The notes under the pieces are model-generated. The model worked only from the letters and a program-made list of their open reading frames with translations, searched no databases and had not been told where the DNA came from. From Bacilli bacterium (GTDB taxonomy: Bacteria; Bacillota_I; Bacilli_A; ML615J-28; CAG-698), in contig JAFZWP010000013.1 of assembly GCA_017617065.1 (NCBI GenBank), positions 62,001 through 126,000 of the forward strand: DNA of 64,000 nucleotides. Reading direction: 5' to 3'. Position 1 is the stretch's first letter. Each line of letters starts with the position of its first letter. Of the stretch, positions 1-38,005 are shown in pieces. The position numbers were made by a program, and so were the translations under genes.

Positions 1-652
1 GATCTTCTTTTGATAAGAATAAACGTTTAATAAATAAAGATATAGTTAACTTTACATTATTAGGACCAAAGTAGCCCATGAATTCACCATCACTATTTAG
101 TTGGATAATTCCAGTTGAGTTACCTTCACTAGTAATGAAGATATTGCCGTTCTTATCAACTACTACTTTAGTTGGACGGTACTGGCTATCTTCTCCAAAT
201 AACGCTTCAACTGGGCGGCCAAATGTCTTTAGTAATGTGCCATCACCACCAAATTTATAAACATTCTTTTCATCTGCTACAAAAATATTTCCATTACCAT
301 CAGTACATACACCTTGAGGACCAGACAGTGTCCCTTCCCCAATAGTAGTTACTGTAGCTGCACGCGTATCGTAGCGATATACTACTTTTGCTCCCTTATC
401 CGCAATATAAGCTATATCATTATCATCGATATAGATATCTTGAGGATTTGTTAGCCCTATATTAATTACGTTAACTCCTTCATATGCTAGAGGCGAAATA
501 TTAAGTTCACCTTCTAGACCAACCGCATATGTATTATATGGGTTATTGTTAATTTCACTTTTAGCTTCTACATGTTTACCATTTACGCAAACTACACAAA
601 CAACGAATACTATTAGTACCATTAGTATTCTTTTAATCATATTCTTCTTCAT
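1..652 (-). CDS. NHL-repeat membrane/secreted protein, partial (C-terminus off the left edge)
   Basis: The first roughly 217 residues of an exported protein are visible and the gene runs off the window. It starts with a hydrophobic signal segment ([19 protein letters not shown]), then beta-propeller (NHL-like) blades with the recurring pattern 'P.D.Y.D....Y.AD', 'GPQGVCTDGNGNIFVAD' and 'PTKVVVDKNGNIFIT'. The start codon overlaps the stop of the upstream permease gene (TAATG), so it is translationally coupled to it. An alternative start is the ATG at 640. It is the counterpart, by position and sequence style, of the 699-residue NHL-TPR-Yip1 protein at 41355-43454, which also follows a MalG gene. 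From that paralogue I infer that the missing part carries a TPR and a multi-helix Yip1-like domain. Biochemical role unknown; a structural or sensory subunit of the importer is only a guess. Confidence 0.75.
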   Translation of the reverse strand, partial: MKKNMIKRILMVLIVFVVCVVCVNGKHVEAKSEINNNPYNTYAVGLEGELNISPLAYEGVNVINIGLTNPQDIYIDDNDIAYIADKGAKVVYRYDTRAATVTTIGEGTLSGPQGVCTDGNGNIFVADEKNVYKFGGDGTLLKTFGRPVEALFGEDSQYRPTKVVVDKNGNIFITSEGNSTGIIQLNSDGEFMGYFGPNNVKLTISLFIKRLFLSKED

Positions 653-1524
653 TATTTAATACCTGAATGAGACATAGTGTCCATAACCTTAGATTGTAAG
701 AAGATAAAGATGACTAGATTTGGTACGAATATAATCAATGCTGCTGCTGCACTTACACCAGCTCCACTAATACTATTAGAGGCATTAGTTAAAGTTGATA
801 AGTAGTAAGCAAATGTTTGAAATTCTTCTTGGTTAACATATAAATTTGATGTTTCAGTATTGTTCCAAGCCGTTTGGAAGGCAAGGATTGCTACTGTTAC
901 TAAAGCAGGTTTAATTAGAGGTAGGATGATCTTCGTATAAATGAAGAAATCACCAGCACCATCCATTTTCGCTGCTTCGATTAATTCGTTTGGTACTTCA
1001 TCAATAAATTGTTTTACTAAAAACAGTCCTACTGGAATTGCAAGTAATGGTAAGATATGTGCCCATAAAGTATTAATAATTCCAATCTTGGAAATAATTA
1101 AGAATCTAGGAATTATAACTGCACAGCTTACGAACATCATTGATAAAGTATTGATTTCGAATAATACTGATTTTAATTTAAATTTTTTCTTTGATAAGAT
1201 GTAACCAGCCATTGAAGAAATGATAACTGATAGAGCCGTTACCGCTAAAGTAACAATAATACTATTGATTAAATAACGATAAATTGGAAGTCCAGTTGAA
1301 CCACTTCTTTGGAATAAATCCACAAAGTTACCAAATGTTGGGTTACGTACAAAGAATTTAGGTGGGAATTCTAACAACTCATCTAATGGTTTAAAGGCTG
1401 AAACAAACAAATAAACGATTGGTAAAGCCATAAACGCAGCAAGTGGTACGATGATGATGTAGAACTTGATTTGATCACGAGTGAAATGTTTAGGATTGAA
1501 CTTTGTTCCAGTATTATATCTCAT
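652..1524 (-). CDS. Carbohydrate ABC transporter permease, MalG type (operon A)
   Basis: Inner-membrane subunit of a CUT1-type sugar importer. 290 residues, the usual length for MalG-like permeases, with about six membrane segments. The cytoplasmic EAA loop that docks the ATPase is clear ('[20 protein letters not shown]', about residues 187-206). The C-terminus 'MSHSGIK' is typical of the family, and the MalG paralogue at 43454-44416 ends 'MAHSGIK'. A strong AAAGGAGGT ribosome-binding site lies inside the end of the upstream malF-like gene, and the start overlaps its stop by 4 nt (ATGA). It is preceded in the operon by MalF, two binding proteins and the GH94 fusion enzyme, so the cargo is probably a beta-1,2-glucan oligosaccharide; that is inference from context. 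No ATPase gene accompanies it. Confidence 0.93.
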
Positions 1525-2504
1525 CGTTTTTTACCTCCTTTCTTCTCACGAAAGACACTAGTAAAAATACGATTGAAGATGTACACGATTATTAGTAAAA
1601 TTACTGATAATGCGGCACTCATACCAAGTTCTTTTCTTAAAACTCCATAGTCATCGATGTGGTTAACAACAAGTTGTCCGGCATTTTGTGGAGTTGGGTT
1701 AGATCCAGATAACTGAACACCAATTGCTCCGGCACTAAATGCACCAACGATTGCCATTACGGCACCGAATAACATTTGTGATTTCATATTTGGAACAGTA
1801 ATATAGAATATTTCTTGAATTCTATTTCTAACGCCATCAATGGCAGCTGCTTCGTATTGTTCTTGATCTACATTAAGTAGTCCTGATAGCATCGCTAAGA
1901 ATCCAATACCCATACTACTCCATAAAGTTACCATCATCATAACTGGCATTAAGTATTCAGGAGATTGTAACCACTGAACAGGTTCAGTTATGAAACCTAA
2001 ATTAAGCATTATTGAGTTTAGGTAACCTTGCTCATCACCACTAAAGATGATCTTCCATAGAACTGTCATAGCTACACCTGAAGTCATTGAAGGTGAATAA
2101 ATAATTAAAGCTAATACAGTTCTTGCACCTTTTTGAATCTGTGATAAAATCCAAGCTAATATAAATGATAATACATATCCACCAGGCCCAACAACTAGGG
2201 CAAACACTAATGTGTTAGGTAGGATTGTTTTCATGAAATCAGAATCTTGAGTAAATAAATAAACATAATTATCTAACCCAACAAATTCTGGTTTAGAAAT
2301 ACCATTATAATATGTAAAACTAAATATAATAGCTACAATTATCGGAAGTACGATAAATACAATAAACATTAAGACATATGGGAATAAAAAGATAACAGTA
2401 GTTCTGTTGCCTTTATCCATCCATTGGCTAATCTTATCACCCATATTTCCAAAGAATTTCTTAAGTTTCTTGAAAAAAGATTGTTTCTCTACGCTATTTT
2501 CCAT
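1521..2504 (-). CDS. Carbohydrate ABC transporter permease, MalF type (operon A)
   Basis: Partner permease of the MalG-type protein. 327 residues with a charged cytoplasmic N-terminal tail of about 35 residues before the first membrane helix, and six predicted helices. The EAA motif is '[20 protein letters not shown]' (about residues 219-238). It shares distinctive blocks with the permease at 44409-45332 ('[12 protein letters not shown]', 'G.NPTPQ.AG' in an extracellular loop), so the two are paralogues rather than generic family members. It lies 3 nt downstream of the CBM-SBP fusion gene and overlaps the next permease by 4 nt, consistent with a single transcript from the promoter near 11.58 kb. 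Confidence 0.93.
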
Positions 2505-2507
2505 AGT

Positions 2508-5447
2508 TTATCCTCTCTCTTGCCAAGACTTAATTTCCTCAAGGGATGGAACCTTGTAAGGTTTTAATACATTACCGTCTTTATCTAAATATTTAAATTC
2601 AATCATCTTACGCTTGATTTCACGGTTTATTTCTAATGAATAATCCGTAACTGCCGCTCTAACAGAAACTGTATTAAATACACAAGCATTCCAAGCGTTA
2701 GATATTCCTCTTTCAATCATATAAGTAGCTGGTGTTTGAGGAACTTGATATAAATATTTCCATTGTTCTAAAATAACTTGTTTATCAACCTCAGGAATTG
2801 CCAGTGTCTTGAATGCTTCAAGATTAGCTGTATTCCATAAGAATAACTCTCCATAAGTTGCTTGGATTCCAGCCGCAAACCTAGTTTGTGTCTCAGTAGA
2901 TAACCACCATTTTAAGAAATCCCAAGCTTGTTCTTTTTTCTTTGACTTTTCAAAGATAACAACTGTCTTAGAATCAGCAGTTTGCGTTCTATTGATGTAT
3001 TCATCTTCTGTTCCTTCATTATATTTAACACCAGGTGTTAATGTAATTGCCCATTTACCAACAATTTCAGGAGCAGCATGAGTAAGTTGTAAATATGTAT
3101 CGAAGTTAGCAATACCAACTGGACTCATACCATTTCTAAAATCGTTATAGAAGTTTTGCGTTGTTAAAGGAAGTGAATAGATTGTGAATAAATCAACCAT
3201 CATATTCATAGCTTGAATTCCTTCAGGTGTATCAATTTCAGCCCTTAGGAAGTCATCACTATAAATGTTACATCCATATTGATAATAAAATGCTGCTGTT
3301 GTTCCAAGTGATTTAAGACCTGCTCCTCCTGCCATTGGCATATAGAAATTCATGCCATAACGTTGCAGTGTAGGTAGCATTCCAATAATATCTTCATAAG
3401 TCTCAGGAACTTCTAGTCCAATCTTATCTAAAATATCTTTACGATAGAATAATACTTGGAAATCTTGCGTTTCCGGAAGACCATATACTTTTTCACCTTC
3501 AATAAAACTAATTAATGATCCCGGTGTCATAGTTTTTATAGTAGTATAAAAACCATCCATACTCCTTAGATCTGCTAATGCTCCTCTTATACCTAGTGTA
3601 TAAGGAACTCCCGATCCAACACCGATTGCCGCATCCGGTTGGGTATTAGATGCATTAGCATATGTAAGTTTAGATTCGTCAGGTAGTAAGCTTAGTCTTA
3701 CTTTAATACCACTAGCTGGTGTATAGTAAGCATCCGCAAACTGTTGAAGAAGGGATACATAATAAGTTGAACGATTCATCCAAATAGTAACTGAATCTTT
3801 ATCAGCTGCATCGACTTTAGATCTAAATACTCTTTGGCAAGTAGCAAAATACTTAATAAAGAAATTATTTCTAATCTTAGGTAATTTTGCTTGATCTCCA
3901 TAAATATAAATCTTATCGATTGATAGAGGACTAAATGTAGATGTATGAAGGGAATTAGATAACATCAAGGATGCTGATGCAGACCCTTCATATAAAATAT
4001 TTAATTTAGTCGGAAGTTTATTAGGATCCTTAGCTAAAGATACAATCTTCTTATAAGCATTATTGATTTGTTGATACAAACGATTTTCTTTTTTAGGATT
4101 AGACATACTATATTTTGAAATATAGTCTAATAATACTTCTAATCTTTCTTTCCAATTATTAAGTCTAGTTCTAGCGGTAGGAATAAATGCATCAATATTC
4201 CATGTTTTATTCTTATCGGTATTACCACCAGTTAGTTTAATGATTTCTAGATATAATTCATTGATTTCATTAATTAGGCTAACTAATTCATAATAAATTG
4301 GTGCTTGATAAGATGCATCAAGTTGGAATGTTAAATAATGTTCGCCTTCTTCTAAATAGAAATACATTTCTTCATCATTATTATTTAACACTTCATAATC
4401 ATAAGATCCCCTACGATTGTTTAAATTGTTTTTAAAACAATATCTATTTAAATTATCATATAACACCACATTATCAATTAATACTTTAGAATAAATTGAT
4501 GTAAATGTTTGCGAAATATAATATTTAATAGCTATTTTATAATAACCTGCCTCATTTACTTTAAATGCATAAGTAATACTATTACCTGATTCATTAAATG
4601 AATCACCAGATAAGTTGTTTAACTTATTTTTAGAAGTTGAGAAAGGTGTTAAATGTGGCATTTGACTAGATGTAGCAGAAATATCAGGTGATGATTTATA
4701 AGCAGGATCTTCTCCTTCTAATATAATCATCTTATCAGTTGATGCTACATTTTGTGGCTTAGTATATTCTTGATAATCAACCTTTTTAAATAAATAAATA
4801 TCACCAAGTAATAAATCACCAGCTGCTTTTTCAATCTCAATGATGTGAGCACCGCTTGTTAGATTAAATGATAATGGTTTATCGTTATAGTAACGTTGGT
4901 CATATAAGAAATATTTACTCCATACGTTATATCTAACTTGCATTTGATTTACTTCATTTTGATAAATATCATAAACTTCTTCTTTGGAAGAATCTGTCCA
5001 ATAAGTAGGTAAGCAAATATTTGCATAATCATCATTATTCACGCCATCTACTCTTACATTAACTGTTATGTCTTGGACATCATTTTGTAAAGATTTATAA
5101 TCAAGAGCTAACTCATATTCGCCACTAGTCACTACATTTATATTAAATGTAATGATATCATCACCAGTCCAACGATATACTTTTTTACCATATTCTTCAT
5201 CATCAATTAAATTTGCTTCTTCAATTGCTGTATTAATATCAACTTTTTGAAATTCCCTTGTTTCATCATAATTTAAAAGTTTAGTCTGAGCAGGGAACAA
5301 ATTGTTCCCTTGCTCATCTTTACTTACATTAACAAAGAAAGATATTAGTATTAATACCAAATTGATTAAGGCAAATATGATGAAGAACCTGATAAAAAAC
5401 TTTTTTATCACTGGTCCAGTAATTTTACCTTTTAACCCTAGAGCCAT
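2508..5447 (-). CDS. Membrane-anchored carbohydrate-binding/solute-binding fusion protein (operon A)
   Basis: 979 residues, about twice the length of a normal sugar-binding protein. The N-terminus has one membrane anchor (about residues 18-40) and no lipobox. Two beta-rich modules follow (about 70-230 and 240-385) with the look of CBM35/CBM6-type galactose-binding folds: 'TSGEYELALDYKSL', 'EGEDPAY', and 'EAGYYKIAIKYY...LEEGEHYLTFQLD'. Then a helical linker (about 390-480), then a type-1 extracellular solute-binding domain (about 550-950) recognisable by 'DAAIGVGSG', 'VYGLPETQDFQVLFYRKDIL' and 'AWDFLKWWLS'. AGGAGG lies just before the start. It sits between a stand-alone SBP gene and MalF, so this importer has two binding proteins. 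I infer that it holds polymer or large oligosaccharide at the membrane and passes ligand to the permease. Paralogue: 45325-48318. Confidence 0.85.
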   Translation of the reverse strand: MALGLKGKITGPVIKKFFIRFFIIFALINLVLILISFFVNVSKDEQGNNLFPAQTKLLNYDETREFQKVDINTAIEEANLIDDEEYGKKVYRWTGDDIITFNINVVTSGEYELALDYKSLQNDVQDITVNVRVDGVNNDDYANICLPTYWTDSSKEEVYDIYQNEVNQMQVRYNVWSKYFLYDQRYYNDKPLSFNLTSGAHIIEIEKAAGDLLLGDIYLFKKVDYQEYTKPQNVASTDKMIILEGEDPAYKSSPDISATSSQMPHLTPFSTSKNKLNNLSGDSFNESGNSITYAFKVNEAGYYKIAIKYYISQTFTSIYSKVLIDNVVLYDNLNRYCFKNNLNNRRGSYDYEVLNNNDEEMYFYLEEGEHYLTFQLDASYQAPIYYELVSLINEINELYLEIIKLTGGNTDKNKTWNIDAFIPTARTRLNNWKERLEVLLDYISKYSMSNPKKENRLYQQINNAYKKIVSLAKDPNKLPTKLNILYEGSASASLMLSNSLHTSTFSPLSIDKIYIYGDQAKLPKIRNNFFIKYFATCQRVFRSKVDAADKDSVTIWMNRSTYYVSLLQQFADAYYTPASGIKVRLSLLPDESKLTYANASNTQPDAAIGVGSGVPYTLGIRGALADLRSMDGFYTTIKTMTPGSLISFIEGEKVYGLPETQDFQVLFYRKDILDKIGLEVPETYEDIIGMLPTLQRYGMNFYMPMAGGAGLKSLGTTAAFYYQYGCNIYSDDFLRAEIDTPEGIQAMNMMVDLFTIYSLPLTTQNFYNDFRNGMSPVGIANFDTYLQLTHAAPEIVGKWAITLTPGVKYNEGTEDEYINRTQTADSKTVVIFEKSKKKEQAWDFLKWWLSTETQTRFAAGIQATYGELFLWNTANLEAFKTLAIPEVDKQVILEQWKYLYQVPQTPATYMIERGISNAWNACVFNTVSVRAAVTDYSLEINREIKRKMIEFKYLDKDGNVLKPYKVPSLEEIKSWQERG

Positions 5448-5493
5448 GGTTCCTCCTAATTCTTTTAGTTTTTTAAGTTAGTATTCAATCTAA

Positions 5494-7014
5494 TTAGTAT
5501 TCTAATCCCATTGAAGCGAAATCATCAGCTACTAGTTGATTGATTCTGTCATTTAATTCTTTTGTCATATAGTTAATATAATCATTAATTGAAATCTTGC
5601 CTCCGCAAGTATCCCATACTAAATCACCAATTGTAAGTAAGCTACCTTCTCTAACACCTTCAATAGAAATACCAGTGTTAAATGTATATCTTGCTTTTAA
5701 GAATCCAGGAACTGTCTTATTACCTTCTACGATAACTTCAACTTTGCCTTGGTTAGCAGCATCAAATGTTTCTTGTAAACCTTTCATCTTAATGTATGAG
5801 AACCATTTAGCAGAAATTTCAGGTTTTGTATTTAGAGGAATACAAGTTAAAGATAAGCCTGCATCTGGATTATTATCTAAAATATCAAACATAGCTTGAG
5901 CGCCTTCTGCACCAAATGTTAAGTATTTAGCAACTTCATATGCTGCTTCAGCGTGTTTTGTGCTCTTAGACAAGCATACGAAGTCAGTAGCTGCCATTAC
6001 TTTTCCATCAGGATATGAAGTAAAGATGCAATCGAAATCTACATTTTCATATGTACCTGCCCAAGAACCTTCTTGGATGAATCCCATTCTACCAGCTTTG
6101 AATACATCACTTGCAGATCCACTACCTAAAATTAATGATCTATATTCTTCTGCATCATCACCTTCACCAACTGTTGCTGGGATTGAATCATATACATATT
6201 GGCCTTGAGGATCACCTAAATCAGCAATAACTCTTAAAGCATCAAGTAATGCTTCGCTTCTGAAATCAAATTCATGACCATTCCAAGTAAAGTGTTTTGT
6301 CTTACCAGTTGTATCGAATGTAGCAGGTAACCAGTTAATCATATCACCAACAGCATTCATGCCGATAACACCAGTTCCATCCATATGGTTAATATCTTTC
6401 ATTGCTTTAACTACACTAATCCATTCTTCTGTAGAGAATGCACCAGGAGCAAACATTTCTTCAGCGCTCTTATTACCAGTTAGATAATCATCGATTAATT
6501 CTAAGTTAGCAAATAAGCCCATATAATATTGTCCGGCTGGAACTGCAAAAATATGATCATTATAAGTAATTGATTCTCTTAAAGCAGAAGGAATGTCTTC
6601 CCATTCGCTATCAGCTTTTGCAAGGCTTGTAATATCCATTGCCCATTGATTAATAACAGCTGTAGGTACGCTATTAACAAAGAATACATCTGGAAGTTCA
6701 CCAGCAGATGCCATTGTAGCTAAGAATTCATCATAGCCAGTACCATCAACTGGAATTACCATTTCAATACGAATTGTAGATGAAGCTTTATTAAATGCTT
6801 CTACTCTTCTTCTAGTTAAGTTGTTGTCTTCTTCAGTACCGAAGTTCCAACTACAAAATGTGACTACAGTCTTTTTAACTTTATTATTGCCACCACCATT
6901 TTCGCTTCCGCCGCCGTTTTCATTTCCACCGCTAGCTTCACCACAGCCAATTAAAATTAGGCTAAACAAGCAAATAAACATTGCCATAACGATTGTTAAA
7001 ACTCTTTTTTTCAT
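5494..7014 (-). CDS. Extracellular sugar-binding lipoprotein (ABC transporter SBP, operon A)
   Basis: 506 residues. Signal peptide with lipobox LIGC (lipidated Cys about residue 24), then a Gly/Asn/Ser-rich flexible tether (about 25-45) and a family-1 extracellular solute-binding domain: 'VTFCSWNFGTEEDNN', 'ELPDVFFVNS', 'GRMGFIQEGSWAG' and 'AAYEVAKYLTFG'. It should deliver sugar ligand to the MalF/MalG pair downstream. The start overlaps the stop of the GH94 fusion gene (AATGA), and its ribosome-binding site (AAAGGAG) is inside that gene's last codons, so enzyme and receptor are translationally coupled. Ligand inferred from the coupled enzyme: beta-1,2-linked gluco-oligosaccharides, unproven. 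Confidence 0.93.
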   Translation of the reverse strand: MKKRVLTIVMAMFICLFSLILIGCGEASGGNENGGGSENGGGNNKVKKTVVTFCSWNFGTEEDNNLTRRRVEAFNKASSTIRIEMVIPVDGTGYDEFLATMASAGELPDVFFVNSVPTAVINQWAMDITSLAKADSEWEDIPSALRESITYNDHIFAVPAGQYYMGLFANLELIDDYLTGNKSAEEMFAPGAFSTEEWISVVKAMKDINHMDGTGVIGMNAVGDMINWLPATFDTTGKTKHFTWNGHEFDFRSEALLDALRVIADLGDPQGQYVYDSIPATVGEGDDAEEYRSLILGSGSASDVFKAGRMGFIQEGSWAGTYENVDFDCIFTSYPDGKVMAATDFVCLSKSTKHAEAAYEVAKYLTFGAEGAQAMFDILDNNPDAGLSLTCIPLNTKPEISAKWFSYIKMKGLQETFDAANQGKVEVIVEGNKTVPGFLKARYTFNTGISIEGVREGSLLTIGDLVWDTCGGKISINDYINYMTKELNDRINQLVADDFASMGLEY

Positions 7015-10000
7015 TTTCTTTCTCCTTTAATAAAATCTAATTTTTCTAGAGCTTTTTTTGTCATATCACAACACATAAAATATTTCCAAACCGTTTCATT
7101 TTGGAAGTTATCCAACATGATAATGGTTGGCCCTTTATCTATACCTATATAGCAATCGCTAATATAACCAGTATCGAAATTGTAGCACTCGCAAATCCCA
7201 TATAATTTATTGAGTCCTTCAATTAAATTAAAATATTCTAACGCTTTCAAAGACTCTTTTGGGGTAAACACGATACTTGATAAGGCTGCATATGGAGCAA
7301 CACTTCCATCAAGTTCTTGTTTAATTGGTTTGTCAAAGCCCCAAGGTGGTGCTCCATAAACCATATAGCCTTTTTGCCCTTGGAAAGCAGATAATCCCCA
7401 AGAATCCTCTTTATATGTTTTAGACCATGTTTGATCGATACAATACTGCCTATTAGCAAGCGTTGCATCAATACTATTCTTAAACCAATTGATGTTATCA
7501 TCAGTTTTAAGTCCTCTAAAATCAATAAAGCAATGAGTGAATTGGTGAATGAATAAAGCATTGCCATAACAATGTACCAATTCATTACCTTTATATGATC
7601 CTATGTGGCGCTTAAATCCATGATATAAATCTAGCGAGTCTTGTTTTGTTGTAGAATCTTTTGCCGCATACAGGTAATAAATCATCAATTGTTCCGCATA
7701 ATGATCCCAGGTTGCTGGACAGTATCCATCAGTATCCTTCCAATTATTATACGAATATGCCATCTTAATAACTTTTTTACCATCTTTAATAGTTACAAAA
7801 TGATCCCAATCAACTCTATTAACTAAATACTTAACATCTTTTTCAATATCACCTTTAAAATAGCTAGCTGCCGTAATTGCACCCATTAATAAAATAGCTG
7901 TATCGATTGTAGAAAACTCACTTTTTTGATTGATACCTGTAACTGGATCCACAAAATGTGGTAACAGTCCGTGAAAGTCTTCCATCTTAAGTAAACTATC
8001 AATTGTTACTCTAACACGATCTTTGGCATCTTTTTTGCTAACTAATCCTCTTTCCGCCGCTACTACTATTGCTGCTAAGCCAAAACCAATGCCGGCAGTA
8101 GATGCGCGGTACCTTTTAGATGTAGAAAAGATTTTATCTAGCGTTAAGCCATTATCTCCCGACTCATTCCAAAAGAAATCAAAACATCCTTTAATTTCTT
8201 TATTGATTAATTCATTTTCTAAATAAACATCAATGATATTCTCTTCTTTATTAATTAATGATTTATCAAATACAAATCCACCACTTCTATAAATGTTAGG
8301 TGAAGTTACATAGTCTATTTCATCACCATTAATAATTATTTTCTTCTTAGTTTTATTTAAATGATAATTAATGATAACTTTTTTATTATTAATTCTAAAT
8401 TCTAGACTGAAATCATCTAAATAACTAGGAATTACTGGATCAAGTATTACTTTATTCTTTTCTTCTTTAATTCCTAAGAAATTAGAAGTTAGAGCATTTA
8501 GATAAATGCCTGGACCACTAGAGTATACTCTCCATCCTCCTTTAACGCCTACTTCACCAGTTTTTAGTTTATTAAAGTTATCTTTAGCTATATATCTAGT
8601 ATTAAAACAACCATCACTACTACTAAAATATGAATTTCTTTGACGTGGCAAAGCATTCTTAACTACATCGGTTACAATTATTGGATTAATCTTATTAAGT
8701 CCATCATAGAAATGGCAAGATAGGCCTAACTTATGCATCGCTTCTAAATACCTTACATTAGCATGGCAATACTGTAATCCAATTTCGCGGCCAAAGTTTG
8801 CTGCCGTTTCAGCACGGTTGAAATATGTTTTAATTCCCCCATTATACTTAACAGCATCACTCATCAACCTAGCCCCATCAGGGAAGGTTAGATTGTCATC
8901 CACAATCTTAGCCGCATTAATCGCTTGCTTTTCATCAAACATCTCAGAAATTATTCCTCTAGTTAAAGGTAATAATCGATATTTAATGCCACTTTCTTTA
9001 TCAGATGGGTGAATTATGTAATCAATTCCATCATTTCTAAAATGAATGAATCCTGCAGGTACACCATCTTTAATAACTAATTTGTTATAATCTTCTTTAA
9101 TACCTTTGGCTAATTCTAATAATTTATTAGATAAGCTTGCATCAACTCCATCAAGTTTATTTCCTAATCTCGTAAATGCTTCATAAGTTAAACTTGTAGT
9201 CCAACCAGAAACCATCTCTTTTTTATGATCTGAATTAGCTGGTTGTAAAGTATCATCCCAGTCACCACCACCATAACAAGATAGTTTAGTTCCACTAATA
9301 AAATTATCTTCAATTGTTTTTATTTCTTTTAGAATATGTTCTTTAATACTATATCCACTAGTATATTTAATTCCATCCATACTAGTGTATGGTACTAATT
9401 CATCTAAAATACTATAATCATCAGTTGCTTCTAAATATAAAGCAACTAGTCTTAATGGCCATACAATAATATCACCATGACTTGTTAAGTCTTGAATGTT
9501 ATAGAACTTATCAAACATGAACCATTGAGGGAAATTACCATTTTCTAAAAATTGATGTTTATAAACATCTAAAATGATATTTCTCACTCTATCATACTTA
9601 TGCATACTTAAGAATAGTTCTGCTGGTCCTTGGCAAACATCTCTAGTTCCCCAAGCAGCTCCACTATATTGTTCAAGTCCATGTGGAGTTAAGTAATGAC
9701 ATAAAGCATCATGTGCATACCAATATACTAAATAATTATATGATTCAAGTTGCTTTGTTCCTTTAATATTAAAACCATTAACAAATTCGCTAACTTTTTC
9801 TAAGTAATAAGCTGTATCTTTTTCAAAATCCAAATGATTATCATCAGTATGAGAACTAGATATAAACATCTTAAAGCCATTAGATTTTAATCTAAATGTT
9901 AATAAGTTTTCATCTCTAGATAAATTATCTAAATAGAATACTCTATCATCACTTATTTCATAATCTTCGCTTAATCCCATCTTAAAGAATAAATCAGGAT

Positions 10001-11507
10001 ATTTATTATAAGTCATTGATCCGTGATCAAACATTATTCTAGTAATTAAGTCTTCTTTACTAACATGAACCAAGCTTTCATGTTCTCTTTCACCCATTAC
10101 TAAGTGATTAGTAATTACTAAATCATATTTAATTCCTTTAAGTGATTTAAATTCCAATTCTACTTTAGAAGTATCAAAACTTACATAAGTTTTAATTTCT
10201 AATGTATCTTCTTTTAGTTTGTAAATCCACTTTAGGTAATTTATGCCCATAACAAATGCACTAGGCATACCAAGTAATCTATATTTACCATCAATATTAA
10301 TAAATATTCTTTGCCCACTTATCTTTTGTACATTAAGTGGATTTCTTAAATTACTTAGTAATTTATTAAATGATGTGTTTCCACACACAATTTGGGAATT
10401 AAATAAACCAAATATATAACCAGTTGTAGCTATTACGTTTTCAAAATCGTAAGAACCATCTTCAAATTTATTTTGACTATAAATGATATTTCCACTAGGA
10501 CGTTCTATGTATCTTTCTTTTTCACTTAAAACTACATGTGATTTATCATCTAAGAAGAAAGACATTATTCTTCCATCAATCTTTTCTTCTAGATGTCTAT
10601 TTGGAAACATCTCATCTACATCAATATCTTCTGCTTCTAAAATATCATCATATGATATCTTTAAATCTATTTTCTTAAACTCATCAGCACTAAAATCATA
10701 TTTTCTATTTTCAACTTTTTTATAAATATCTAATACTTTTTCTTTATATAAAGGTTTACTAATAGCATCAGGATGACTAGCACTATAATATGAATAAAAT
10801 ACCACTCTTGCGTCTTTATCTAAGTTAATTTTTTCACTTTGTAATGCATGATATGCAAATTCATATTGATATATTTCATTATCTAGATGTGATTTAGATA
10901 AACAGATAGGTAAATTATTAAACTTATAATCTTTACCAAAGAATTGGAAGCCATCGATATCATAACTTACATTTTTAGTAATTGTAGAAGATTCTAAATA
11001 TAAACTATCACCTTGGTTTTGGCGTGAACACAATGTATATCCATCATTATCTAAATATGCTTTATGATCAATGTATTGTGAAACATATGCTTCATTATTT
11101 GAAATTGCATAAATATTACTAATTGAAACATCGAGGCCGTAGAATACTTCTACAACTTTACCTTTTACTTTATCTAATCTAACATCAAATAGTAAAGCGT
11201 TTTCAATTATTGAAAAAATTATATGGTATTGGACCCCTTCAAAGCTACCGATGTAGACTACATAGTTATTAACTTCATCATGCGTAAATAATACTTTTGA
11301 AGGCGAATCAATACCAATCATTCGCGAAAACTTACCATCTACCCTAATGTATAAATTAGCGATTGATGGTTCTAAATTGTTTGAAACATATGTGTTGATT
11401 CTATTAATGCCACTTCTGATTTCTTGAATGTTACCACTCTCTAAAACCTTAGCATTTAGCTCTTCACTACCAACTAAATATGTTTTAATTTGTTGTTTAG
11501 GAAACAT
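7011..11507 (-). CDS. GH94 phosphorylase (1,2-beta-oligoglucan phosphorylase type) fused to a PF10091/GH144-like domain
   Basis: About 1,498 residues with no signal peptide, so cytosolic. Residues 1 to about 1080 match GH94 phosphorylases in layout: an N-terminal beta-sandwich, then an (alpha/alpha)6 barrel with 'GTRDVCQGPAELF', 'GNFPQWFMFD', the catalytic-acid motif 'GGDWDDTLQP' (Asp near residue 754), and the late 'GGWRVYSSGPGIYLN' loop. About 1,100 residues is the usual size of 1,2-beta-oligoglucan (sophorose) phosphorylases, as in Listeria and Lachnoclostridium. Residues about 1090-1498 form a second helical barrel typical of PF10091, the fold of GH144 endo-beta-1,2-glucanases ('GCFDFFWNE', 'SGDNGLTLDK', 'STIDTAILLMGAI', 'DSWGLSAFQG', 'YGAPPWGFD'). 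I infer phosphorolysis of beta-1,2-glucans to glucose-1-phosphate. Start: an ATG at 11519 is also open, but the GGGG that can serve as ribosome-binding site lies between it and the ATG at 11507, so 11507 is preferred. Confidence 0.85.
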   Translation of the reverse strand: MFPKQQIKTYLVGSEELNAKVLESGNIQEIRSGINRINTYVSNNLEPSIANLYIRVDGKFSRMIGIDSPSKVLFTHDEVNNYVVYIGSFEGVQYHIIFSIIENALLFDVRLDKVKGKVVEVFYGLDVSISNIYAISNNEAYVSQYIDHKAYLDNDGYTLCSRQNQGDSLYLESSTITKNVSYDIDGFQFFGKDYKFNNLPICLSKSHLDNEIYQYEFAYHALQSEKINLDKDARVVFYSYYSASHPDAISKPLYKEKVLDIYKKVENRKYDFSADEFKKIDLKISYDDILEAEDIDVDEMFPNRHLEEKIDGRIMSFFLDDKSHVVLSEKERYIERPSGNIIYSQNKFEDGSYDFENVIATTGYIFGLFNSQIVCGNTSFNKLLSNLRNPLNVQKISGQRIFINIDGKYRLLGMPSAFVMGINYLKWIYKLKEDTLEIKTYVSFDTSKVELEFKSLKGIKYDLVITNHLVMGEREHESLVHVSKEDLITRIMFDHGSMTYNKYPDLFFKMGLSEDYEISDDRVFYLDNLSRDENLLTFRLKSNGFKMFISSSHTDDNHLDFEKDTAYYLEKVSEFVNGFNIKGTKQLESYNYLVYWYAHDALCHYLTPHGLEQYSGAAWGTRDVCQGPAELFLSMHKYDRVRNIILDVYKHQFLENGNFPQWFMFDKFYNIQDLTSHGDIIVWPLRLVALYLEATDDYSILDELVPYTSMDGIKYTSGYSIKEHILKEIKTIEDNFISGTKLSCYGGGDWDDTLQPANSDHKKEMVSGWTTSLTYEAFTRLGNKLDGVDASLSNKLLELAKGIKEDYNKLVIKDGVPAGFIHFRNDGIDYIIHPSDKESGIKYRLLPLTRGIISEMFDEKQAINAAKIVDDNLTFPDGARLMSDAVKYNGGIKTYFNRAETAANFGREIGLQYCHANVRYLEAMHKLGLSCHFYDGLNKINPIIVTDVVKNALPRQRNSYFSSSDGCFNTRYIAKDNFNKLKTGEVGVKGGWRVYSSGPGIYLNALTSNFLGIKEEKNKVILDPVIPSYLDDFSLEFRINNKKVIINYHLNKTKKKIIINGDEIDYVTSPNIYRSGGFVFDKSLINKEENIIDVYLENELINKEIKGCFDFFWNESGDNGLTLDKIFSTSKRYRASTAGIGFGLAAIVVAAERGLVSKKDAKDRVRVTIDSLLKMEDFHGLLPHFVDPVTGINQKSEFSTIDTAILLMGAITAASYFKGDIEKDVKYLVNRVDWDHFVTIKDGKKVIKMAYSYNNWKDTDGYCPATWDHYAEQLMIYYLYAAKDSTTKQDSLDLYHGFKRHIGSYKGNELVHCYGNALFIHQFTHCFIDFRGLKTDDNINWFKNSIDATLANRQYCIDQTWSKTYKEDSWGLSAFQGQKGYMVYGAPPWGFDKPIKQELDGSVAPYAALSSIVFTPKESLKALEYFNLIEGLNKLYGICECYNFDTGYISDCYIGIDKGPTIIMLDNFQNETVWKYFMCCDMTKKALEKLDFIKGERK

Positions 11508-11525
11508 AAAATACCCCATTTACGT

Positions 11526-11548
11526 AAACGTTTTACTGAAACGTTTCA
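11526..11548. promoter_or_regulatory. Two LacI-type operators in tandem upstream of the GH94 fusion gene
   Basis: TGAAACGTTTCA at 11537-11548 is a perfect 12-bp palindrome. A second AAACGTTT palindrome core sits at 11526-11533, centred 13 bp away. Both have the central CG typical of LacI/GalR-family operators. They lie between the predicted transcription start and the start codon, a position suited to roadblock repression. The cognate regulator is not adjacent; the LacI gene at 54011-55036 or a CcpA-like protein are candidates. Confidence 0.7.
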
Positions 11549-11564: not shown

Positions 11565-11593
11565 ATTTTAACACAATTTATATTTTTTGTAAA
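11565..11593 (-). promoter_or_regulatory. Sigma-A-type promoter of operon A (GH94-SBP-permeases)
   Basis: On the minus strand a -35 hexamer TTTACA (11588-11593) and a -10 hexamer TAAAAT (11565-11570) are separated by 17 bp. The two LacI-type palindromes lie just downstream. This is the only promoter I see ahead of the closely packed genes from 11.5 kb to the left edge. Confidence 0.7.
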
Positions 11594-11665: not shown

Positions 11666-13162
11666 TTATTTACAATATGTTTTCATCATAAAGTCAAGCT
11701 TAGCATATAGCCATTCTCTTACAAATTCCACATGTCCATCCCATGTAGTGATAGCTACGATTTCAGGTGGATTTGGCCAGCCATACTTGCCTAATATTTT
11801 CCATTTAGTAAAGTTTTCTAGAAAATATGGTTTATATAACATTACTTCTTCTATCTTTTCATCAACTACCATATGGATAATATCATAGTATTTAGTTAGT
11901 TTTTCTTTTACTAAATCTTTAAATTCTTGATGTTTTAATAAATATTTATACCAAGTATTAGTATTAGCAAATAATCTATCCGAAAATCTAGCTTGATCAT
12001 TATAATCTACATTGCCTGCACTAATATCAAAGTCCCAAATAGGACCATTTTTTACTTTATCACCTTTATCTTTCGATATATACCAACTAGAAAAGTTGAC
12101 ATCGATTGATGAGAATAATTCATGAATGATATAGCCATCCGCAAAACTATCTACATCAATGCATTTCTTTACTTGTTCGTAAGATGAATTCTTAATTGTA
12201 TCAATACAGAACTGAATATAGTTTTTAATTCTTGTGCATTCAGATTTATTAAAGTTTTCACCATCAGTCTTTGGCGCTTTAATACCATAAGGTTGACCTT
12301 CGGCGTAGAAATAATCTAAGCCTTCCGTCTTTCCTTCATCAAGAATTCTTTTATCTAGTTCTAATAAAAAGCTAATTTGGTTATCAATATCATCATTGAT
12401 TTCCACGCGATTTTTTCCAACTTCAATTTGTTCACAAATTAAATATAATCCTTGATATGCTCCATTTACATAAACAGAAGCATATTGCATCGATGTAGTA
12501 TAAGGAACATCATCAAATGCATAAGCAATTGAATAAGCTAAATAATTTCTAATCAAGCTAGGATCTACATAATTGGCAATTAATGTCCAGTCTTTGTTAG
12601 CACCATTACCAAATAAATCTACTTTTTGATTGAATTTAATTCGATAAGGTTTTTTCGGTTTATCCCATGTGGAATTACCACGGCCTTTAATTTTTGCTTC
12701 TACTCTAGTTAGGTTATATTCAGGATTCTTATTATCATCTACTGTAATTGTACAGTTTAGATAAGTCTCTTTAGATGTAATTGCTTTACCATTTTCAGTA
12801 TTAATAAATATTGTAGGATATTCATAAATAATCTTTCTAAAGTTAGCTACAAGTGTTACATCGCTAGTAACATTAGCGATTTGTCTTTTTTCATCTTTAA
12901 CCCCATCGCTCCAAGATACAAATTCATATCCGAATGTGGCAATGGCTTTAACTATTTTACTTGAATTTCCTTCTTCTACCGATTGTACTTCAGCCCCACT
13001 AATGTAGCCGCCTTCATTAGCTACAAACACTACATTATGATAAATCTTCTGCACTTCTTCGGTATTATCATTTTGGCTTTGTTCAGCTGGTGTTTCATTT
13101 ACACAAGCAACAAACATAAAGACCATTAATATTAACAATAAAAAACTCAAATAGCGTTTCAT
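11666..13162 (-). CDS. CotH-kinase-family lipoprotein with an InlB-type repeat
   Basis: 498 residues. Lipobox FVAC near residue 20 predicts a surface lipoprotein. About residues 40-110 resemble a bacterial (InlB B-type) repeat ending in 'YEFVSWSDG....VTLVANF'. From about 115 the CotH kinase fold follows: 'VEAKIKGRGNSTWDKPKKPY', 'ANYVDPSLIRNYLAY', 'QGLYLICEQIEVGKNRVEI', and 'GPIWDFDISAGN' (about residue 372). CotH-family proteins are atypical protein kinases first known from spore coats, and related lipoproteins occur on the surface of many gut anaerobes. The substrate here is unknown. It has its own promoter and terminator, so it is not part of the adjacent glucan operon. Confidence 0.88.
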   Translation of the reverse strand: MKRYLSFLLLILMVFMFVACVNETPAEQSQNDNTEEVQKIYHNVVFVANEGGYISGAEVQSVEEGNSSKIVKAIATFGYEFVSWSDGVKDEKRQIANVTSDVTLVANFRKIIYEYPTIFINTENGKAITSKETYLNCTITVDDNKNPEYNLTRVEAKIKGRGNSTWDKPKKPYRIKFNQKVDLFGNGANKDWTLIANYVDPSLIRNYLAYSIAYAFDDVPYTTSMQYASVYVNGAYQGLYLICEQIEVGKNRVEINDDIDNQISFLLELDKRILDEGKTEGLDYFYAEGQPYGIKAPKTDGENFNKSECTRIKNYIQFCIDTIKNSSYEQVKKCIDVDSFADGYIIHELFSSIDVNFSSWYISKDKGDKVKNGPIWDFDISAGNVDYNDQARFSDRLFANTNTWYKYLLKHQEFKDLVKEKLTKYYDIIHMVVDEKIEEVMLYKPYFLENFTKWKILGKYGWPNPPEIVAITTWDGHVEFVREWLYAKLDFMMKTYCK

Positions 13163-26551: not shown

Positions 26552-27526
26552 TTAAAAATCACATTTTAGTATTTTCTTCGCAAATTCAATCTTCTTTGGT
26601 AAATGGATTTCTTCGAATCCACCATGTCCATATCCCTCATATGGATATAGTTCTTTATAGCAGTTCATCTTTTTATATGCTTGATAAAAATATTTAGGTG
26701 GACATACATTATCTACCGTACCAAACGAAGAAATGACAGAAGCTTTAATTCTAGGTGCCATATTAATCACATCAAAATAATCTTGATTAGCCATTACAGT
26801 TTCTTTTAATTTTGGATGATCTTTCAAAAAATCATCTATAACTGTATATTTTCCTTCCCTATTTATTATTCTATCTTTAATTGCGCAATCACTTGGTACA
26901 TCAGATAAAGAAACTTTAATGTCATAATCAGACATAGCTGATACCATTAAAGATAATCCACCACCTTGGCTAGGGCCTGCTACGATTAGTGGCTGGCTTG
27001 CTAAAGGTGTACCATTTATATCTTTAAAAAGGTTAGGATCTTTAATAATATCAAGTAGTTTTAAAGCATCTTGATCTAGTCTTTTGTTGTAGCATGTCTC
27101 TAAATCGTCAATATTGAAACAAGCTGAAGGATAATCCATATAACGATATTTCGTATTATCGATTACCTTTCCATTTTGAAAACGCATATCGATAGCAAAT
27201 ACATTAAATCCAGCAGCTACTAAATTCATGCAGTGCCACTCGTTATCGGGATGATCAATATAGCTCATATGACCATGATAATATGCTACTACTGGACGAG
27301 ATGGTTCCCATCTTAAATATAATTTAGCAAATATCTTAGCACCATTTACTGAATCATAATAAAAATCAATAATCTTACCAAAACCATCTAATCTTACATC
27401 TTCTTTTACTATCTCTACATGATTCTTAACATCATGTACTTCTTTAAGCCATTTTGCCCATCTCTCATCAAAGTCAGCTGGCTTAATAGTAGATACATTA
27501 CATTCTAGATTCTTTAAATCAAACAT
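26552..27526 (-). CDS. Acetyl-xylan esterase/cephalosporin-C deacetylase family (CE7-like) esterase, cytosolic
   Basis: 324 residues, no signal peptide. Alpha/beta-hydrolase of the AXE1 type: 'AYYHGHMSYIDH' (oxyanion region), 'FNVFAIDMRFQ', nucleophile Ser in 'VAGPSQGGGLSL' (about residue 184), acid Asp in 'SSFGTVDNVCPP', and His in 'YEGYGHGGFEE'. CE7 enzymes remove acetyl groups from short oligosaccharides inside the cell. It lies 4 nt after manA and downstream of the mannan operon, so deacetylation of imported acetylated manno-oligosaccharides is the likely job (inference). Confidence 0.9.
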   Translation of the reverse strand: MFDLKNLECNVSTIKPADFDERWAKWLKEVHDVKNHVEIVKEDVRLDGFGKIIDFYYDSVNGAKIFAKLYLRWEPSRPVVAYYHGHMSYIDHPDNEWHCMNLVAAGFNVFAIDMRFQNGKVIDNTKYRYMDYPSACFNIDDLETCYNKRLDQDALKLLDIIKDPNLFKDINGTPLASQPLIVAGPSQGGGLSLMVSAMSDYDIKVSLSDVPSDCAIKDRIINREGKYTVIDDFLKDHPKLKETVMANQDYFDVINMAPRIKASVISSFGTVDNVCPPKYFYQAYKKMNCYKELYPYEGYGHGGFEEIHLPKKIEFAKKILKCDF

Positions 27527-27530
27527 ATTC

Positions 27531-28469
27531 TTATTTATATGATTCTACGATCACTAATTTACCTTTCCCTTTTATTTCTTCTTCGATAGCATTACTAGTA
27601 ACAATAAAGCTTTCACCTACACTAATAATCATATCTTCATATCTAAATAAACCACTAGCTACTGTACACAAATAATATTTATGCTCTTTGTTCATAAATC
27701 TAATTTGACGGCGTACATTCACTAATTTGATATTAAAATATTCATTATCCCATAATACATAATCATCTCTACTATCTAAATAGTCAGTATCATCAATTGT
27801 AGCATCATTTGGTACTTTAATTACATCTAATGATTTATCTAAATGCAATTCTCGCAAGTTTCCATTTTTGTCTTTGCGATTATAATCATAAAGTCTATAA
27901 GTTAGGTTAGAGGACTGTTGAACCTCTAAAAGAACTAAACCTTTACCTAAAGCATGGATTGTTCCAGCTGGAACTGGTACAAAGTTTCCTCTTTTAACAT
28001 CATGGTATTTAAGGAACGAGAAATCACCACTTCTAGCCATTTTCTCTAAATTTGCTTTATCTAGCTGATTATGGCCATAAACAATTTTTCCATGATCGCT
28101 ATTTATAATTAACCATGATTCAGTTTTACCTAAATCATTATCTTTTTTTGCATATTCATCATCAGGATGAACTTGCACACTTAAATCAGCACTAGTCGCT
28201 ATCATCTTCACTAGAATCGGAAATTCTACTGAAGTAGAATTAGCAAACAATTCGTGATGTTCTTTATATAACTTGTCAAGAGTTACCCCTTGGTATTTTC
28301 CATTTTTAATTGTAGATGGGAAATCTTTATAACCAGATATTGTCCATAATTCCCCAAAGTCTTTATCTTCTTTTGTTAAGTTTAATACATCTTTAAAATA
28401 TTTACCGCCCCATATCATTTCTCTTAAAGGGCTATCTAAAAATAAAATTCTGTCGTTATCTTTATTCAT
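27531..28469 (-). CDS. manA: Mannose-6-phosphate isomerase, type I
   Basis: 312 residues, the Bacillus-type short form. Interconverts mannose-6-phosphate and fructose-6-phosphate. Zinc-site blocks: 'LSVQVHPDDEYAKK' (His pair region), 'GKTESWLII', and 'VPAGTIHALGKGLVLLEVQQ'. GAGG precedes the start. It begins about 36 nt after the terminator of the giant-lipoprotein operon and is the natural final step for mannose released by that operon, although the window shows no mannokinase or phosphomannomutase. Confidence 0.95.
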   Translation of the reverse strand: MNKDNDRILFLDSPLREMIWGGKYFKDVLNLTKEDKDFGELWTISGYKDFPSTIKNGKYQGVTLDKLYKEHHELFANSTSVEFPILVKMIATSADLSVQVHPDDEYAKKDNDLGKTESWLIINSDHGKIVYGHNQLDKANLEKMARSGDFSFLKYHDVKRGNFVPVPAGTIHALGKGLVLLEVQQSSNLTYRLYDYNRKDKNGNLRELHLDKSLDVIKVPNDATIDDTDYLDSRDDYVLWDNEYFNIKLVNVRRQIRFMNKEHKYYLCTVASGLFRYEDMIISVGESFIVTSNAIEEEIKGKGKLVIVESYK

Positions 28470-28564: not shown

Positions 28565-31500
28565 TTATTGCAATTCATTGCCAAGGAATGAAACTGTGCC
28601 TTGATATGATGCATCACCATTAGTGATTGTTAGATTGATTGTAGTTGTAGCATCTGCTGCAGGAGCTGAAGCTAATGTTACATAACATCTAACTGCACTT
28701 GCACTATAATTAGAGAATAATGTACCAACAACATTAATGCTTTCGCATGTAGCTGTTGCGCTGAATTGTGCCATATTTTCAGCTGTTAAGCCGATACTAG
28801 TTGGATCAATCCAAATCCATGCGCCAGCACCTTCAATGTGGTTACGTGCATCGCCTTCTGCTTGTAAGTTAGTTAATTGGAATGCAGCAGGGCTTGAAGC
28901 TTGTCCATTAGGTAATGCATAAACTTCAAATGAATTAATTCTTACTTGTGCACTTAAATTAGAAACTTTGAATGAATCAACTGGTGCAGCAAATACAACA
29001 GTAACAACCTTTGCATTGACAGTAACAGTTGCTCCCTCAGGGAAAGTAGAATTCTTTAATGCTGTAGCATAGTCATTAGAGTTTGCATTGAACACAACTT
29101 TGATTAATCCATTGTAATGAACTTCAATAGATTGTTTTGCATAAACTCTTATAGGGTTAACATAAGGTTCACCGCTATTGCTATTACAAGTAGTTGATGA
29201 ATTATCTTTATTAGCGATAAATGTTACATCACCTTGTACCCATTCTAGTTTATCAGCAGTTTTTGTTGACATAGTTCCTGTAGATGCGCTAGCAAATGAG
29301 AAATCAGCCACTTTTTCAGGTTCTACTGCACCTTCTTCTTTTGTTTCAACTACGATTTGAGTTGGTCCACCAATTGTAGCAGTGTATACGCCTTCAACAG
29401 CTTCTACATCCACACCATTAACTTTTACGCCTACTAATTCGTGGCCATTTGCTACATCAACTTTGAATGTGAATGTAGATCCATTTACGCCACTTTCAGC
29501 ACTAATTTCTTTAACTGTTGCATGTTCACTAGAATCTTGAGAAACACTAACTGTACTTGTTCCAGCTTTGCAAGCATCAATTACAGAATATAGAGATTCA
29601 CCATCAACCTTAGTTGTTGCGATTTGAAGAGTTCCGCCATAGTTCATTAAGTAAGCATGAACTAAAACTTCATCATTTACATAAACATTTTCAATACCAG
29701 TACCTTTAGATGCAGTATAGATTGCTAATAATGGTTTACCATTTAATGTACTAGCAATTTTTGCATTTTGTACATATGTACCTTTGTCTTCGCCAGCATT
29801 TACTACATAGCCCTTAATCCATACTTCTTGAACATCTACATATGCGCTAGATGAAGATCTACCCATTCTAGCAGCAAGATCTAGAGCTTCTTCAACAGTT
29901 AATGGATTAGCTTGAGTACCTTTATCATAACTTAATACGCAGTTACCTACATATAAGTATGTGCTTCCGCTAATTGAACTTCTTGTAACGAATACAACTG
30001 ATTTAACTTCTGCTGCATCAAATGTTAATTCTTGATCAATTAAGCCTTGTGTAACTGGAATTGTTACCCAGTTGTTAGCATCACCAGCGATGAATACTTC
30101 ACTTCCGTTAGCTAATACTAATTTAACTTTAACTGAGAAGTCTTGTGCACCACTGAAGTAGTTACCAACTTTGAATGATAATTTGTTTGCTAATCCTAAA
30201 ACTTCGCCATCTTTGTTATAAGTAAATCTCATAGGTACACTATAACCATTTACCATATTAACAACTTTAACGCCATCTTTAGTTCTAGCATTCATTTGAC
30301 CAGTAATTACATTCCATTTATCGTTCTTGTAATTTTCACGAGTCCATTTAGTACTATTGTAAGCGCCATCGCTTCCTGGATGATCAGCAAATAAGTTAAC
30401 ATTTGCAGGAGCAGCAGGAATAGTATATCCTTCTTCTACAACAACGTCATAGATATTAACTGCTGCATCCATACCACCAATGAAATATGTACCAGGAGTA
30501 GTAATAACATATTCAAGAATAGTAAGTTCTCCACTACCATATACTTGCTTACTAGTAATAACGTTCTTATCAGCATCAAAGATATGTAGTGTTCTAGTTT
30601 CAGAATTTGAACTATAAACATAAACTGTAACTTTTACAGATGAAGATTTTGTAGTGAATTTAATAGCACGAGCAGTTGGAGCAGATTTTCCACCTAATTT
30701 CATTCTTTTAGTGAAAGATAATGATCCAGCGTTTTTGCTATTTGCTTCTACAACAACAGTTTTATCTGCTGTAGCTAGTACTGTAAAGAAGTCTGCAAAT
30801 TGTGTATCTTCTTCAAGAGTAGCAGCTTGCATACCAGATACGTTTAGAGAATGCTTAGTATATGGATATGGAGCAACATGAACTTGTAATTCTGCTTTTC
30901 CTTCATTACCAGCAGCATCTTTAACTTTAACTGTAACTTTATAATCACCAGCGATTAATTGGTTAAGTGTTAATCCACCTAAGTCAACCATTTCTTGAGT
31001 AACTGCAATTGCACCATCGAAATCATCGTTAGCGCTTATGCCAGCTAATAATTGACCAAATAATGCAGATGCATCTTGACCTTCAGTTAAGTTAGCAGCA
31101 GCTAATGCAGTAGCAACTGAATCAGCAACAGTAACAACTGGAGCAGTCTTATCAATAGCAACTGTCATAGTGTTTGTAGCAGGATCATAAACAAGTTTAT
31201 ATTTTAAAGCTTGTCCTGGCATCCAACGATTGCCATCAGCTGATTCATGATATAAAGATTTATCCCATGCATCGCCAGTCTTTTCAGCTGCAGTAATAGC
31301 ACCTGCAAATTTAGCATTTGTATACCATAATGCAACTTCTGAATCATCTTCACCTACAACAACGAATGAAATTCTATTCCATGCGCCAAGATCAACTAAT
31401 GCTTCGTATTTACCATCTACTAATGCGAATTCGCCTTGTTTAGCTCCAGCATATTTAACTGCTTTAATTGTAGCAGGAACTGCAGGAACTGCGAAGTCGA

Positions 31501-37060: not shown

Positions 37061-38005
37061 TTATTCACCAGCAATACCTGAACGATCCGCGCTCTCTACA
37101 AACCATTTTTGAGTGAACGCATACAATAACAATAATGGCAAAATTGTCAACATTGTTCCCGCAAATAAAACACCTTGATTAAACGATTCCGCCGCAGCTC
37201 CAATACCAATCGATCCAGATGGGAATAGTTGAGCATACATATGTTCAAAACTAGATAATGCCATCTGTAAAGTGGTGATGTTTCCTTGGAAATACGTTAC
37301 CGCTAAAACCGTTTCATTCCAGTACCATACAAATGAATATAATATACATATTATAAATGCTGGTACTGACATAGGAATCGCAATTCTAATGAAGATTCCT
37401 ACTTCACTCGCTCCATCAATCTCCGCAGATTCACTTAATTCATGAGGTATCACTTTAAAAAACTGATAGAAAATTAAGATGAATACGCTTTGACGCAATC
37501 CAAATCCAGTTAGCGCTGGATAGATATACGCCTTTAGACTGCCTAACATTTTTAACTTTTGAAATATGACATATGTCGGGATACTCATTAACATTGTTGG
37601 AAGTAAGAAAATACCAACAAGTAGTGCCATCCAGATTTTTTTACCTGGAAACTCAAAATGAGCAAATCCATAACCAATCAGTGACGATGAGATCACCGCG
37701 CATAATGTTGGCAGAATACCAACTTTTAGAGAATCACCAAGTGATTTCCAAAAGTTTAAAACTTCGTTTGCTTTTTGATAATTATTAAAAACAAACTTTG
37801 TTGGAATCCAAATTACCGTTGGATCCATTAAATCCTCTAAACCCATAAAGCTTTTTGAAACCATCTTTAGGATAGGATAAAGGAAAATAAAACTAATACC
37901 GATTAATAACATGTAGATGAAGAATTTGCCAATTAAGCCAGACTCGCCTCGCTCACCTAGCATAATCTTCTTAAATGTCCTCTTCTTCTTAAATGTATTT
38001 TCCAT
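37061..38005 (-). CDS. Second MalG-type sugar ABC permease (mannan operon)
   Basis: About 314 residues with six membrane segments and an EAA loop 'ESAEIDGASEVGIFIRIAIP', in which the usual first Ala is Ser. It is more divergent from the other two MalG proteins here than they are from each other, and ends 'ADRSGIAGE'. The start at 38005 is chosen for the AGGTGG site 5 nt upstream; an earlier in-frame start at 38035 lies inside the malF-like gene. No dedicated binding protein directly flanks this pair. Confidence 0.9.
   Translation of the reverse strand: MENTFKKKRTFKKIMLGERGESGLIGKFFIYMLLIGISFIFLYPILKMVSKSFMGLEDLMDPTVIWIPTKFVFNNYQKANEVLNFWKSLGDSLKVGILPTLCAVISSSLIGYGFAHFEFPGKKIWMALLVGIFLLPTMLMSIPTYVIFQKLKMLGSLKAYIYPALTGFGLRQSVFILIFYQFFKVIPHELSESAEIDGASEVGIFIRIAIPMSVPAFIICILYSFVWYWNETVLAVTYFQGNITTLQMALSSFEHMYAQLFPSGSIGIGAAAESFNQGVLFAGTMLTILPLLLLYAFTQKWFVESADRSGIAGE

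Follow-up and report, generated by a model that had tools for sequence, protein, structure and literature searches.

Why two enzymes that are normally encoded by separate genes should be carried on one chain, and what such a chain would do, is the question raised by a gene at 7011..11507, minus strand, of the window, i.e. the stretch of 64,000 nucleotides analysed here (positions 62,001 to 126,000 of contig JAFZWP010000013.1, from the Bacilli bacterium assembly GCA_017617065.1, a genome of rumen type). The gene joins a 1,2-beta-oligoglucan phosphorylase (SOGP) of family GH94 to an (alpha/alpha)6 barrel of the GH144 type. The operon to which it belongs probably serves the utilization of beta-1,2-glucan, a bacterial sugar polymer, and the gene product is probably a bifunctional cytosolic enzyme, for which we infer both activities, the substrate and any kinetic benefit of the tether. 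Both activities are known singly and each half is an ordinary member of its family; what is new is the domain architecture, and not the chemistry. No description of a SOGP-GH144 fusion was found in the openly accessible literature, of which the coverage was partial, the CAZy and InterPro architecture lists lying outside it.

The fusion gene and its product

The open reading frame opens at 11519 with a first ATG that would give 1502 residues. The second ATG, at 11507 (1498 residues), is the preferred start because a ribosome-binding site and the start itself are conserved in an orthologue, GGGG being found just 5′ of this ATG here and GAGGT before the same methionine there. Residue numbers are counted throughout from the first ATG, i.e. 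for the 1502-residue form (P0002). Along the chain, with all Pfam matches above the curated cut-off and all features on the minus strand, follow the SOGP_N beta-sandwich domain (residues 25-242, 10794..11447; PF21958, 1.1e-56), the SOGP_2nd supersandwich domain (305-553, 9861..10607; PF21250, 5.2e-79), the GH94 (alpha/alpha)6 catalytic domain (Pfam stretch 685-953, 8661..9467; PF17167 Glyco_hydro_94, 4.9e-11), the SOGP_4th C-terminal beta domain (1016-1090, 8250..8474; PF21270, 7.5e-9) and the GH144-type (alpha/alpha)6 domain, which spans residues 1103-1500 (7020..8213) as judged from PDB sequence matches, Foldseek and a PF10091 match at 1270-1484 (2.9e-49). A profile search of the fusion protein against NCBIfam was without match.

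Chance is excluded, because a frame of 1502 codons carries five curated domains in register. The same uninterrupted fusion is found, at 80% identity, in an independent metagenome-assembled genome of the same genus (JAGCUR010000016.1, Bacilli, yak rumen; G001 in the following), which rules out an assembly or frameshift artefact. The fusion of two normally separate enzymes into one chain is therefore real, and the single 1498-residue chain of GH94 and PF10091/GH144-like parts put forward in a preliminary description of this DNA is borne out. That description also took the chain to be cytosolic, in agreement with the lack of a leader, the one observation that bears on location. Comparison of the window genome (G000) with G001, at high synonymous divergence, gives a ratio of non-synonymous to synonymous substitution (dN/dS) of 0.17 over the SOGP part, as against 0.09 over the GH144 part; both domains are thus under purifying selection, and neither half has escaped constraint since the species diverged.

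The phosphorylase half

The best PDB relative of residues 32-1089 is LpSOGP (5h3z, E=2.5e-237). The catalytic half of the GH94 part matches LpSOGP at 2.5e-151, as opposed to 8e-9 or weaker for other GH94 phosphorylases, which rules out a cellobiose-type phosphorylase and agrees with the type originally proposed for it. All four Pfam domains (SOGP_N, SOGP_2nd, GH94 and SOGP_4th) are present in SOGP order. The roles of individual residues are known for LpSOGP, including that of D760 as the catalytic acid (PMC5309861), whose counterpart by alignment is D756 (codon at 9252..9254, minus strand). Together with it, the subsite −1 residues R630, D631, W758 and E917 are found as R626, D627, W754 and E912; those of subsites +1/+2, which accommodate beta-1,2 chains (Q621, R907, R916, Y1004, N138 and Y141), as Q617, R902, R911, Y999 and, within SOGP_N, the pocket residues N142 and Y145; and the phosphate-binding Y922, H924, S1005 and S1006 as Y917, H919, S1000 and S1001. 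Identity to LpSOGP extends to 14 of the 15 ligand positions in the GH94 half, the sole change among the mapped catalytic and ligand residues being G623 to Ser, at the position of a water-mediated contact.

The N-terminal half is a SOGP by every available sequence test, and phosphorolysis of Sop3 and longer chains is predicted for it. It shares with known SOGPs the order of the four domains, nearly all pocket residues and the absence of a leader, and its gene is clustered, like the SOGP gene of Listeria innocua, with genes for an ABC importer, a GH3 enzyme and LacI; the known enzymes end with their fourth domain, at a length of about 1,100 residues, beyond which the fusion runs on into the GH144 barrel.

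The GH144-type half

For residues about 1111-1497 the closest PDB matches are the GH144 enzymes CpSGL (5gzh) and XcSGL (8xul), at about 1e-37, with bit scores of 113-134 for GH144 structures as against 26 for GH189 and GH194. An AlphaFold2 model of the domain (pLDDT 80.6, pTM 0.89) retrieves in Foldseek GH144 structures first (4gl3, 5gzh and 8xul among the top), then GH189, GH192 and GH194, and then GH162. By bit scores and by Foldseek order, GH144 appears as the nearest SGL-clan family in both sequence and modelled fold, and the profile, PDB and Foldseek searches agree in placing the region inside PF10091 and closest to GH144, as had been suggested at the outset. The label of PF10091, ‘putative glucoamylase’, would mislead automatic annotation.

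With residue roles in the SGL clan taken from PMC12102758 and PMC10834661, alignments identify E1276 (codon at 7692..7694, minus strand) as the counterpart of the general acid, CpSGL E211 and XcSGL E239; Glu occupies this position in 54 of 55 alignment rows, the exception being the XcSGL E239Q mutant. The proposed general base, CpSGL E142, corresponds to D1206 (7902..7904, minus strand), Asp as in XcSGL instead of the Glu of CpSGL, at a position that is acidic in 50 of the 55 rows (Asp in 49, Glu in one). The clan residues F1323 and Y1385 are present alongside E1276, Y1385 aligning directly to CpSGL Y330, while the loop of XcSGL Y367 is apparently misplaced in the pairwise alignment. The base of GH162 is absent, its position being held by I1460, hydrophobic as in GH144, and the Glu, Phe and I1460 positions are essentially invariant over the 55 rows. 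In common with CpSGL (5gzh/5gzk) and XcSGL (8xul), to which it is about 24-28% identical, the domain has the fold, the general acid, the position of the proposed base and the residues that define the clan; unlike them it is fused and leaderless.

The residues of GH189 are a different matter. In comparison with two cyclic-glucan-synthase-like proteins, the nucleophile position holds Ala1378, and the HH pair is replaced by Ile1460-Asp1461. The nucleophile, TiCGS E1442, was placed here by motif spacing and not through the sequence of TiCGS itself, the Glu of WGISES being taken for it on account of a spacing of 88 to the acid/base, close to the 86 of TiCGS. Of the three roles (hydrolytic, transglycosylating or binding only) that had been considered for this domain, hydrolysis is favoured in view of the retained catalytic residues of GH144, the lack of the nucleophile of GH189 and a dN/dS of 0.09.

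The junction and the origin of the fusion

The junction (residues 1080-1103, 8211..8282, minus strand) was delimited by an AlphaFold2 model of residues 303-1502 and by comparison with the split genes of G006, a genome of the same family (CAKJYW010000038.1). In the model (pLDDT 75.5, pTM 0.77) it is linkerless, the final SOGP strand passing directly into the opening helix of the GH144 barrel with block pLDDT values of 87-95; the angle between the two barrels is not settled by the model. Over 49 junction codons dN/dS is 0.66, which points to apparently weaker constraint.

Genome searches took in 60 relatives, 395 genomes from the class, 28 from the family and 392 from the phylum, together with 391 from the class to which a Clostridiales genome belongs; these sets overlap, and 1,272 genomes were counted, some more than once. 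The full-length fusion was found only in the window genome and G001, both sampled genomes of one genus, and in none of the roughly 1,200 others. No single place in the 391 genomes of the Clostridiales set, or in plasmid and phage records, covered both halves; in the plasmid and phage records coverage of the fusion query nowhere reached 80%. The commonest alternative arrangement keeps SOGP and GH144 in separate genes. G006 has orthologues of both halves (53% and 57% identity) next to each other, unfused and in unchanged order, within the same set of operon genes; their frames differ, and the two genes share 8 bp (ATGGCTAG). The SOGP of G006 ends ...NKEENVIEVYLNG and stop, where the fusion reads ...NKEENIIDVYLENELINKEIKGCFDFFWNE. 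The same order, unfused, is found in G038 and in the Clostridial L036 and G761, while in G024 and G017 the GH144 gene sits upstream instead. In a phylogenetic tree the fused GH144 domain and the neighbouring GH144 of G006 group together (100/100). The second GH144 of the operon stands apart, its G001 and G006 orthologues making up a different clade. As adjacency in the same order is the state of the nearest relatives, with an 8-bp overlap in one case, the simplest history is that an adjacent colinear pair lost a stop and had its frames joined.

Two candidates for further fusions were discarded. L036/G529, with a tblastn span of 4-1498 and a reported open frame of 1567, consists of two genes separated by several stops, which remain when TAG is read as Gln, and by a terminator-like hairpin; the long frame of G048 was likewise resolved as two genes. 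A SOGP gene with 60% identity in L034 (Tb.RUG.524) breaks off at residue 927, where its contig ends. At L063:5723-11157 a GH94-type protein of 803 residues with weak SOGP similarity adjoins a 978-residue leader-bearing protein with a GH144-like N-terminal part.

The operon

A minus-strand operon opens with the fusion gene, which is preceded by a terminator and by two LacI-type palindromes (11524..11548, around AAACGTTT at 11526 and 11539, minus strand) recognized in the sequence, similar sites lying upstream of the G001 orthologue. A possible extended −10 promoter, TTTACA-17-TAAAAT (11565..11593, minus strand), is a consensus match only, of a kind found in numbers not above shuffled expectation. 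The gene that follows, overlapping the fusion stop by 4 bp, encodes a solute-binding lipoprotein (5494..7014; PF13416/PF01547) and is succeeded, on the same strand, by genes for an N-extended membrane-tethered protein with a C-terminal sugar-binding domain (2508..5447; PF01547), two ABC permeases (1521..2504 and 652..1524; both PF00528) and an NHL/TPR membrane protein, whose 5′ part (1..652) was recognized through its G001 orthologue and which continues left of the window. Beyond it the operon encodes a DUF5696 protein, a further permease, the second GH144, which has a lipoprotein-type leader, a GH3 without leader, a lipoprotein containing repeats and a LacI regulator. The solved relatives of the 2508..5447 protein include Lin1841, a sophoro-oligosaccharide binder, and the GH3 is related to Lin1840 (5.6e-139) and BT_3567 (1.5e-162), both associated with beta-1,2-glucan, as well as to other GH3 enzymes. 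The SOGP cluster of Listeria follows the same logic (PMC3960220).

Among solved structures the solute-binding lipoprotein is closest to 22hh (E=5.7e-45), which has five entries and belongs to the family-1 solute-binding proteins; Lin1841 is not among the matches of the lipoprotein. Directly upstream of the fusion (11666-13162) lies a gene, with its own terminator at its end, for a CotH-kinase-domain lipoprotein with List_Bact repeats.

A lipoprotein-type and a leaderless GH144 are found together in several other Bacillota, which suggests a general division of labour between the outside and the inside of the cell; the fusion would tie the intracellular member of such a recurring pair to the phosphorylase. 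Leaders were called in these proteins by a hydrophobicity rule rather than by SignalP. Pairs of this kind, often in tandem, were seen in L021/L027, L022/L025, L026/L020, L043, L048-L050, L054 and the window genome.

Proposed function and alternative readings

In the route that we propose, the lipoprotein GH144 would trim the glucan outside the cell and the ABC importer would take up the chains; the fused GH144 barrel would then cut imported long or cyclic beta-1,2-glucan by inverting hydrolysis, every internal cut adding one non-reducing end, and the SOGP half would free alpha-glucose-1-phosphate from such ends, without ATP, down to sophorose, which the GH3 beta-glucosidase of the operon would finish. 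A cytosolic endo-enzyme makes most sense with imported rings or long chains because an end-acting phosphorylase cannot start on a ring. A stronger version, which we regard as unlikely, is that the importer brings long or intact macrocyclic glucan into the cytosol and that, once the fused barrel has linearized it, the new non-reducing end passes straight to the phosphorylase; such a one-protein degrader of cyclic glucan would be the catabolic mirror of cyclic-glucan synthase. Some points weigh against the proposed route. CpSGL D135 and D139, which are needed for activity in that enzyme, are Ser in the fusion, although the literature describes them as not conserved across the clan. The operon already encodes an extracellular GH144 and, if the products of the latter are only short, a cytosolic endo-enzyme would be nearly idle. 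Furthermore, leaderless GH144 proteins of the fused type form a clade of their own, so that their specificity may differ from that of CpSGL and XcSGL.

The last point leads to the idea of an exo-acting or short-chain-specific GH144 enzyme, e.g. a sophorose-releasing one, in place of an endo-glucanase, to which the separate clade lends some weight. The weakest of the GH144 matches in the PDB, though, is 5z06 (BDI_3064), which we take to be the exo-type sophorose-releasing homologue. Such a homologue is indeed on record (PMC8861115, PMC11842490), but the known exo enzyme has an extra N-terminal region that the fused domain lacks (PMC8861115), and this reading appears improbable. That the domain would be a non-catalytic module feeding glucan to the phosphorylase is very improbable: an attached barrel could hold long chains, and one clan group has yielded no substrate (Group 4 PgSGL4, PMC12102758), but E1276, D1206, F1323 and Y1385 are all kept, and the GH144 half is the more strongly constrained of the two. 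A GH189-like transglycosylase, making or opening cyclic glucans, would have the same fold (TM 0.75 to 8wy1), and cyclic-glucan synthases do pair a barrel of this superfamily with a GH94 phosphorylase on one chain. Yet Ala1378 stands at the position taken by spacing for the nucleophile, the HH pair is Ile-Asp and similarity to GH189 is about 100 bits below that to GH144, which leaves this option scarcely credible. The comparison with these synthases drawn in the preliminary description holds, the fusion having a similar pair but no glycosyltransferase domain among its Pfam matches; domain order and barrel type differ. The synthases are GT-GH189-GH94 (GT, glycosyltransferase), whereas the fusion is GH94-GH144, with reversed order, a GH144-type barrel, a SOGP-type GH94, no membrane part and a degradative context.

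A different kind of doubt concerns the tether itself. Both halves may be active as proposed and the fusion may do nothing beyond fixing their stoichiometry, as a neutral read-through of adjacent genes that brought neither channelling nor a new substrate; this account agrees with ours on the activities and differs on whether the tether matters. It has nearly an even chance, the genes being adjacent or overlapping in G006, G038, L036 and G761, the event being a single one in one genus, and the junction codons showing the relaxed dN/dS given above. The retention of the fusion in both genomes, at strong synonymous divergence and a protein identity of about 80%, and the junction modelled as rigid rather than as a loose linker, speak for a tether that matters, though both are still compatible with neutrality.

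With the bifunctional enzyme that we favour, the two steps by which beta-1,2-glucan is broken down inside the cell would have been physically joined in evolution, in support of the idea that leaderless GH144 proteins are cytosolic partners of SOGP. The fusion also makes the imported form testable (short oligosaccharides, long chains or rings) and is a candidate natural bifunctional catalyst for the conversion of beta-1,2-glucan and phosphate to glucose-1-phosphate.

Other carbohydrate loci in the window

The glucan operon (1-7014) shares an unusual accessory set with a mannan-type cluster at 37061-49900 (compare L095:14537-18607), namely a DUF5696 protein, an NHL/TPR(/Yip1) membrane protein, a roughly 1,000-residue N-extended protein with a sugar-binding domain, and permeases. 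No mention of DUF5696 was found in the openly accessible literature; the protein may be a conserved partner of these carbohydrate importers. Further mannan-type genes, at 26552-28469 and 50939-59180, encode an acetyl xylan esterase, a phosphomannose isomerase, a GH5-like/DUF5060 protein, a GH130 mannooligosaccharide phosphorylase, a LacI regulator, a GH2 mannosidase and a CE2-like esterase. Between esterase and importer genes, at 28565-37012, lies a gene for a surface-type protein of 2815 residues made of bacterial Ig-like domains.

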